From positions 50,508-114,507 of the forward strand of contig JANQKP010000009.1 in NCBI GenBank assembly GCA_028281045.1: a stretch of 64,000 nt of DNA. Direction: 5' to 3'. Shown in pieces: positions 55,539 to 57,227 of this stretch (position 1 is the stretch's first letter; the number at the start of each line of letters is the position of its first letter). The translations under genes were made by a program, and so were the position numbers. The DNA comes from Candidatus Altimarinota bacterium. GTDB taxonomy: Bacteria > Patescibacteriota > Gracilibacteria > UM-FILTER-43-11. The notes under the pieces are model-generated. The model was not told the origin of the DNA, did no database searches, and saw nothing but the letters and a program-made list of their open reading frames with translations.

Positions 55539-56133
55539 GGCGGGGGATCTATACGTGTAACGATGCTAATTGTGTCACACAGATCCCCCGCCGGGTTGAA
55601 CGGACAGATAACACGCAGCAAGCTGATGCTATCTGAAACCTGAATGCGGATGAAAATAGGGCGGGACCCTGTTTTATCTTTATCAAGGAGGAGTGGGTCG
55701 CGCAAACCCTATCCCCATCCGCAAAAAATAGGTAGGTCCGAGCGGAACGCATTTGGCAGCCCCCTGCCACGTTAAAATGCTCGAACCTACAAAGAATATG
55801 GCAGGAATGATCGGTTGGCCTCGTACGCGCCAACGAGTTGAAGACCAACTAAGGGATGATCACCCCTGCCAAAAGAAGCAGGCGATGTGAAAGCGGTGGG
55901 GAGTGATACGAAGGGTCGTAAGTAGCCTTCACACCGCCTGCGAAATATTTAGTATGACCGGGGTGGGGATGTAACCCACCAAACTATGTCTCAAGTACGC
56001 TCCATGAAAAACTCAAGAACTTTGGCTAGCCAGTTGGGGAAGGAGGGGGATACTTACCCAAACAACCAAACCCTTTGTGCACTGCAACGTTGGGATAGAC
56101 CGGTCAAAAAAAGACATGTGTAAAAGAACATGG
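55539..56133 (-). ncRNA. Large highly structured RNA, unassigned, about 600 nt
   Basis: No believable protein gene. The region is a chain of strong stems (plus coordinates): 55539-55550 with 55581-55592 (12 bp); 55605-55610 with 55630-55635; 55646-55652 with 55716-55722, containing 55656-55661/55707-55712; 55732-55743 with 55779-55790 (11 of 12), containing 55755-55759/55764-55768; 55800-55805 with 55865-55870; 55878-55884 with 55935-55941, containing 55886-55891/55928-55933; 55962-55967 with 55975-55980; and a long-range 55956-55961 with 56100-56105. Strand is inferred from the minus promoter at 56140-56167. The last stem is followed by ATTTCTTTG and may terminate. No match to RNase P, tmRNA, 6S or SRP motifs that I can see. 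Confidence 0.7.
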
Positions 56134-56139
56134 GTGTTT

Positions 56140-56167
56140 ATTGTAACAAATTTTTTAAATTCGTCAA
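56140..56167 (-). promoter_or_regulatory. Promoter of the structured RNA
   Basis: Minus strand: TTGACG (56167-56162), 16-bp spacer, TACAAT (56145-56140), directly after the proB-like stop. Start near 56133. Confidence 0.75.
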
Positions 56168-57061
56168 CTAACCCGCTTGTCTTGGAAGAATAACAGTTCC
56201 TCGACTGAAGTCTCCATTTGCTGCATCTATAATAGCGCCAGCTTCTTTTTCACTTGTAATAAAGGTGGTAATACCATGATCGCCTGCCAGTCTTGCTGCT
56301 CTTGCCTTACTTCCCAGGCCTCCATTACTGTCGTCACCAGCCTCACTGTAATCGTGCTCTTTAATCCAGCTTTCATCAAGTTCATCGTGACTTAAGCGAT
56401 CAATACGCTCTGCCTTTTCAGCTTCTCTTACCGGGTGTCCCCCCTCAAAGAAGCCTCCTACTTCTGTAATGAATATAAGTAGGTCTGCTCGAGTCTCCAT
56501 GGCCACTTGCACGCTCATCCCATCGTTATCACCATGAGTAGTTTCACTAATTTCCTGACGAGCCTGGGTATCATCTTCATTTCCAATGAATACTTGCCCT
56601 GCTCTCAGGGTGTTATCCATATAAGCATTCGCGTCCTTTCTGGTCATCTCGTCTGAAAAACTACGAGGGGTAATAAGTTTTTGCCCCACCAAAATTCTAG
56701 GAATTAAGTTCGGTTGAGAAAATCCATTTTTCCAAACTTGCATAAGATCTGCTTGTCCGAAACCTGCTGCAAATTGTTTTTTTCTTATGCTATCAAGAGA
56801 ATTCCAAACCTCTTCCAATCTGGAGTGTCCATCGTTATGAGCTTTTTCTTCAGCAATCTGATTCATAATTGCTAGCTCTCCAAGGGGTACTGCCCCAGAA
56901 CTAATAATGCCCATTTCTCTTCTCATTCTGGTAACAAGGGTATGAGCCTCGTATCCCAAGCGATTTACTACGTTCGTATTAATCACCTTAGGACTATCTG
57001 GTCCATTAAGAGTGTGGGTAATAGAGTTACTTCCAATTTTAGGAATAATTCTTTTAAACAT
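56168..57061 (-). CDS. proB: Glutamate 5-kinase-like amino acid kinase
   Basis: 297 residues without a PUA domain. Amino acid kinase motifs: IPKIGSNSITH, GIISSGAVPLGE, IGNEDDTQARQE, THGDNDGMSVQVAMETRADLLIFITEVGGFFEGGHP, GGLGSKARAARLAGDHGI. Closest to ProB, which phosphorylates glutamate on the way to proline. The attenuator with Pro codons just upstream supports this. I start at ATG 57061; an ATG at 57088 lies inside the attenuator stem. No proA in the window. Confidence 0.82.
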   Translation of the reverse strand: MFKRIIPKIGSNSITHTLNGPDSPKVINTNVVNRLGYEAHTLVTRMRREMGIISSGAVPLGELAIMNQIAEEKAHNDGHSRLEEVWNSLDSIRKKQFAAGFGQADLMQVWKNGFSQPNLIPRILVGQKLITPRSFSDEMTRKDANAYMDNTLRAGQVFIGNEDDTQARQEISETTHGDNDGMSVQVAMETRADLLIFITEVGGFFEGGHPVREAEKAERIDRLSHDELDESWIKEHDYSEAGDDSNGGLGSKARAARLAGDHGITTFITSEKEAGAIIDAANGDFSRGTVILPRQAG

Positions 57062-57074
57062 TAGGGAGGCAGTT

Positions 57075-57107
57075 AAAAAATAAGCCACCGGCTGTATCAG
57101 CGGGTGG
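57075..57107 (-). terminator. Attenuator terminator (segments 3:4) before proB
   Basis: On the minus strand CCACCCGCTG (57107-57098) pairs with CAGCCGGTGG (57094-57085), 9 of 10 bp, loop of 3, followed by CTTATTTTTT (to 57075). It ends 14 bases before the proB ATG. Confidence 0.85.
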
Positions 57108-57130
57108 TTTTAAATGTTTACACAAAGAGG

Positions 57131-57151
57131 CCACCCGCGTTAGCGAGGTGG
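57131..57151 (-). promoter_or_regulatory. Attenuator segments 1:2
   Basis: Segment 1 (57151-57143, CCACCTCGC) pairs with segment 2 (57138-57131, GCGGGTGG), 8 bp with one bulge. Segment 2 is also perfectly complementary for 8 bp to segment 3 (57107-57100), giving the competing antiterminator. Confidence 0.8.
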
Positions 57152-57190
57152 AGTTGGAGCAGTAGATGCTTTAAAACTTGTGTAAGTCAT
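57140..57190 (-). CDS. Proline-rich leader peptide (16 residues)
   Basis: ATG 57190 to TAA 57140: MTYTSFKASTAPTPPR. Three of the last five codons are Pro, and they lie in attenuator segment 1, with the stop in the loop before segment 2. This is the classical arrangement for ribosome-mediated attenuation by the cognate amino acid. Confidence 0.75.
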   Translation of the reverse strand: MTYTSFKASTAPTPPR

Positions 57191-57199
57191 AGTACCCCT

Positions 57200-57227
57200 A
57201 TTTTAGCGTAAAATATGGGTTTGTCAA
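57200..57227 (-). promoter_or_regulatory. Promoter of the leader peptide-proB transcript
   Basis: Minus strand: TTGACA (57227-57222), 16-bp spacer, TAAAAT (57205-57200). Start expected a few bases before the leader ATG. Confidence 0.8.

Follow-up and report, generated by a model that had tools for sequence, protein, structure and literature searches.

In the trp and his attenuators, a leader ORF carrying control codons precedes alternative 1:2, 2:3 and 3:4 pairings and a terminator ahead of the structural gene; the leader described here shares this layout and differs in the amino acid (proline), in a predicted leaderless start, and in a target that often lacks its pathway partners. Bacillus-type T-boxes upstream of proB or proBA are sensors of uncharged tRNA-Pro controlling proline genes, but they bind the tRNA directly and have no leader peptide. 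Within the phylum, one genome of another class has a canonical proB preceded by a T-box-like leader (RF00230; G389, L158, 1285-1454), which scores 59 bits, below the gathering score of 93, with an E-value of 2e-12. In the peTrpL attenuator of Sinorhizobium meliloti, translation of the leader ORF takes place on a leaderless mRNA; this attenuator differs from the present leader in being proteobacterial and concerned with tryptophan.

Proline codons are used by mgtP/mgtL of Salmonella (mgtCBR, mgtA), where a 17-codon ORF containing them senses Pro-tRNA and controls downstream transcription, and replacement of the Pro codons of mgtP was proven by mutation to abolish the proline response (PMC3641672). 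Those leaders differ from the present one in their targets (Mg2+ transporter and virulence genes), in having a Shine-Dalgarno sequence, and in responding to additional signals, and there is no sign of common ancestry. A 2010 survey, which itself added Firmicutes, stated that until then Proteobacteria and Actinobacteria were the only groups in which amino-acid leader peptides had been demonstrated (PMC2965389). Searches of the open literature, with subscription journals mostly uncovered, found Pro-codon attenuators only at mgtCBR and mgtA, and no report of a proline attenuator at a proline gene or of a leader-peptide attenuator in the phylum. The class of mechanism is already known (trp/his; Pro-codon mgtP). 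To our knowledge, no earlier leader-peptide attenuator for proline has been described at a proline gene, and no leader-peptide attenuator at all from the candidate phyla radiation; the leader analysed here, with its leaderless design, would be the first in both respects, and priority is not established.

Anatomy and folding of the window leader

All leader elements lie on the minus strand, and coordinates refer to the whole 64,000-nt stretch of DNA that was analysed (the window). A promoter, TTGACA-16-TAAAAT (57200-57227; 11 of 12 consensus matches, equally good in 1 of 200 shuffles), ends 9 nt before the ATG of a 16-codon, probably leaderless ORF, MTYTSFKASTAPTPPR plus stop (57190-57140; codons ATG ACT TAC ACA AGT TTT AAA GCA TCT ACT GCT CCA ACT CCA CCT CGC TAA), and Pro-rich leaders occupy the same place in relatives. 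The Pro control codons, CCA-ACT-CCA-CCT (57146-57157), are read directly from the sequence and are matched in relatives by Pro-Pro with varying synonymous codons. Segment 1, CCACC-T-CGC (57143-57151), pairs with segment 2, GCGGGTGG (57131-57138), in hairpin 1:2 (CCACC-T-CGC / GCG-GGTGG, 57151-57131), within whose loop the leader stop lies (57142-57140). Segment 2 can instead pair with segment 3, CCACCCGC (57100-57107), its exact reverse complement, in a perfect 8-bp helix, and segment 3 doubles as the terminator's 5' arm, where its partner is segment 4, GCCGGTGG (57085-57092). The 3:4 intrinsic terminator with its U-tract spans 57075-57107 (hairpin alone 57107-57085), the U-tract, TTTTTT (57075-57080), beginning 4 nt past the stem and 14 nt ahead of the proB-like ATG at 57061. 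A preliminary description of this DNA had named the same promoter, a 16-codon leader ending Pro-Thr-Pro-Pro-Arg-stop, the 1:2, 2:3 and 3:4 pairings, and a terminator with six U before a proB-like ATG, and all of these were found to be present.

No Shine-Dalgarno sequence occurs within the predicted transcript, either for the leader ORF or for proB, and the AGGGG beside the leader ATG coincides with the predicted start site or precedes it. Because the opposite-strand gene (from 57281) is divergent to the leader, the leader was assigned to proB. Two features of the window copy are weak: a gap of 4 nt separates the stem from the U-tract, and the Pro codons are few, just three, two of them within the stem.

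The whole leader RNA is more stable than its dinucleotide shuffles (z -3.7, 0 of 200), and the long stable fold includes a 9-bp basal helix, UUACACAAG/CUUUGUGUAA, enclosing hairpin 1:2. Folded from the stall point, the antiterminator has a stability of -18.1 kcal/mol, against -12.6 kcal/mol for the terminator, and when the sequence beyond the stall point was shuffled 300 times, no shuffle was as stable. An Rfam search of the window, with the T-box covariance model included, gave no match, and a T-box leader was rejected for the window.

Pro-rich leaders upstream of proB across the class

Searches by blastn with the window leader DNA returned chance matches only, and the element therefore had to be sought by its anatomy; no close relative of the window ProB was present in the searched genome contigs, the best match in the class being 34% identical. 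ProB loci were gathered from 353 genomes of the class, of which 126 gave a match, and 127 upstream regions were read. Leader ORFs with at least three Pro in six codons precede 17 of these 127 loci, where 40 dinucleotide-shuffled sets gave a mean of 2.5 (sd 2.1, max 7) and the reverse strand gave 2; one of the 17 (G253, MPLFGL...) is probably a chance match. Examples of the Pro-clustered leaders are MQMQTTVLVSTPQPPLS, MNLQQTVILPQPPLHQE, MRNISLVPTPRRPLN, MISTLINNTPLPPFFPSR, MTHVVTLPGSSFTPPRAGEVLPA, MIQLSPVPTRIPTPPQARVGVQVVS, MQCDTFKSQVNLITPPPGARLRM and MQRTLSSFVPCPPPPRGRR. Further leaders, AT-rich, carry two clustered prolines (IIPPYF, IFPPFF, FPVPI) and come from lineages in which TGA apparently encodes glycine; with two-proline leaders counted in, 25 loci were labelled leader-bearing, and about 100 of the 127 proB genes are without such a leader. 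In the phylum's other classes, 18 upstream regions, a small sample, showed no Pro leader.

Leader, antiterminator and terminator were all located at 22 loci. At 18 of them, the best promoter has its end 7-10 nt ahead of the leader ATG, which places the start site at the AUG or within a few bases of it, and from sequence alone the leader mRNA is probably leaderless; longer gaps (27-47 nt) occur in G338, G227 and G197, and G238 is ambiguous. At 14 of the 22 loci, no more than 4 of 300 shuffles matched the antiterminator, and at most of the 22 a ribosome placed at the first clustered Pro favours 2:3, while with a ribosome at the stop the terminator is the exposed structure.

Proline itself is conserved in the predicted leader peptides: its codons vary across leaders (CCG 39, CCC 18, CCA 13, CCT 11), and adjacent prolines are kept in AT-rich leaders that have no GC stem demanding CCN. 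For the comparison of 2:3 helices only, leaders were lined up by their Pro-Pro codons. The helix lies at similar distances from Pro-Pro with many pair types and with base-pair changes on both sides at many positions, and differs between loci (GCGGGTGG:CCACCCGC, AGCGAGTGA:TCACTCGCT, GCGAGGTTG:CAACCTC.CGC, GGGAAGG:CCTTCCC, ACAAGGAG:CTCCTTGT). The compared pairs were taken from minimum-energy folds, which biases the count towards pairing, and the actual test is the comparison with 300 shuffles. MAFFT with RNAalifold misaligned the diverged leaders and gave no consensus structure; because the leaders do not align, no column-based covariation figure could be obtained.

Conservation of the leader ORF and its Pro codons, on which the preliminary description had proposed that its reading be checked, is borne out, since Pro-rich leaders precede proB in many relatives, including proB-proC-proA operons. 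Mutual exclusion of the stems in homologues holds up as well, with three exceptions: 2:3 and 3:4 compete in many, but in G128, G270 and G272 the 2:3 helix, though strong, lies outside the terminator arm, and there mutual exclusion is unproven. The reading of the preliminary description thus passed the check that it had set for itself. On a tree of 122 ProBs, the leader label changes about 10 times, at least 8 of these forced by well-supported branches, and the switch was therefore gained or lost several times. Nearly all leader-bearing proteins on the tree (24 of 25) are short and PUA-less; the window protein forms a long branch whose exact place is unsure.

Proposed switch and competing explanations

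The leader is very probably a transcription attenuator in which a ribosome acts as the sensor of charged tRNA-Pro. Its anatomy, the conservation of that anatomy and the pairing alternatives are observed, and the transcription start, leader translation, stalling, termination and proline response are all inferred, with no expression, transcript or ribosome-profiling data. Transcription would begin at the leader AUG or a few bases ahead of it, and the ribosome would load at the 5' end. With proline present, the ribosome would continue to the UAA, located in the hairpin 1:2 loop, and would cover segment 2, leaving 3:4 to pair and RNA polymerase to terminate ahead of proB. With Pro-tRNA scarce, it would stall at CCA-ACT-CCA-CCT and mask segment 1, and the freed segment 2 would pair with segment 3, block the terminator and allow proB to be transcribed. 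Without any translation, 1:2 would form and termination would be the default.

The same RNA switch could also be driven by slow Pro-Pro bond formation, the leader sensing EF-P activity or nascent-chain arrest at T-P-P-x and not the charging of tRNA-Pro. Many leaders do have adjacent prolines in a conserved TPP context (TPPRAG, TPPxAR, PTPPR), but this TPP-x-A-G/R context is also imposed by segments 1 and 2, and the prolines of some leaders are interrupted (PLPLP, PVP, PTPRRP). EF-P genes, whose presence such sensing would fit, were found in 18 of the 19 genomes tested, the window genome included, and because of this constitutive Pro-Pro stalling is not expected; the genes downstream of the leaders, however, are proline genes and not EF-P genes. 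This explanation is considered unlikely.

Less likely still, and improbable on the evidence at hand, is a riboswitch or antiterminator that binds a ligand or protein, with the ORF and its Pro codons as by-products of GC-rich stems. The long stable fold with its 9-bp basal helix around hairpin 1:2 would suit such an element, and pairing with GGTGG does force CCACC; yet Rfam gave no match, the spacing between the -10 box and the ORF is constant, Pro is retained in AT-rich leaders without a GC stem, and leaders in other families, with the ORF, the Pro cluster and the 2:3/3:4 logic in common, differ in sequence and in basal fold. That the locus merely holds two unregulated tandem hairpins, similar terminator-like stems with accidental cross-complementarity, can hardly be entertained: sharing of CCACC/GGTGG by 1:2 and 3:4 does make the 2:3 complementarity automatic, but the arrangement recurs at about 20 loci with unrelated stem sequences, always between a Pro leader and proB, and chance is rejected by the shuffles. 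Attenuation by a ribosome reading Pro codons remains the preferred reading.

The proB-like gene and its pathway partners

The gene behind the window leader (56168-57061, minus strand) encodes an orphan ProB-like protein, a glutamate 5-kinase homologue of 297 aa without the C-terminal PUA domain. It scores 106.9 bits against TIGR01027, where the cut-off is 186, and so does not meet the curated equivalog criterion; judged by its predicted protein, the gene is divergent. The closest solved structure in a PDB match is a glutamate 5-kinase, 2ako (E 3e-14). In an 11-member alignment, the K of KxGS, SSGA, NxxD, DND and the K of GGxxxK are invariant, the catalytic roles of these columns being assigned by analogy with E. 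coli ProB.

Between proB and ldh, a noncoding stretch of about 600 nt (55545-56140, minus strand) has its own promoter-like TTGACG-16-TACAAT (56167-56140) and folds into a chain of long hairpins with a strong last hairpin (z -6.1, 0 of 100 shuffles). It had no Rfam match and no real blastn relative in 140 genomes of the class, and is a candidate for a large structured RNA or a hairpin array.

Neither proA nor proC was detected in the window genome (1.2 Mb in 9 contigs, 96% complete) with curated models that were positive in 14 of 14 control genomes, and because both are absent the metabolic logic of the window locus is incomplete. The preliminary description had placed a proline attenuator at proB; the switch anatomy supports this, but, as the genome lacks the proA and proC partners, it is not established that what is controlled at the window gene is proline biosynthesis. 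The pathway logic is plain in five other genomes: the order is leader, proB, proC, proA in G114 and G124, the leader of G067 precedes a canonical PUA ProB with proA and proC downstream, and proC follows proB in G227 and G197. In G227 (L148), whose lineage reads TGA as a sense codon, the Pro-rich leader is followed by proB, proC and a gene that by eye is apparently a prolyl-tRNA synthetase.

Most leader-bearing genomes have proB alone, with proA absent genome-wide and proC absent or represented by a weak partial match. Many genomes without proA or proC carry an orphan glutamate-kinase homologue that lacks the PUA domain but keeps its catalytic residues (L144, L124, L134, L139, L121 and others). 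A tentative interpretation, possible though somewhat short of being favoured, is that several families have kept the attenuator on a glutamate-kinase homologue after losing the remainder of proline synthesis, and that the kinase does something else when proline runs out. If so, the orphan kinase might, for instance, supply some other partner with gamma-glutamyl phosphate, or have a part in proline stress or scavenging.

If the switch works as proposed, its leaderless design would mean that the control ORF begins at the very 5' end of the transcript, and these reduced bacteria would have retained sensing at the codon level for an amino acid whose synthesis seems to be beyond most of them. The regulation would also give a functional handle on the widespread orphan proB family, as a gene that matters when Pro-tRNA is scarce.
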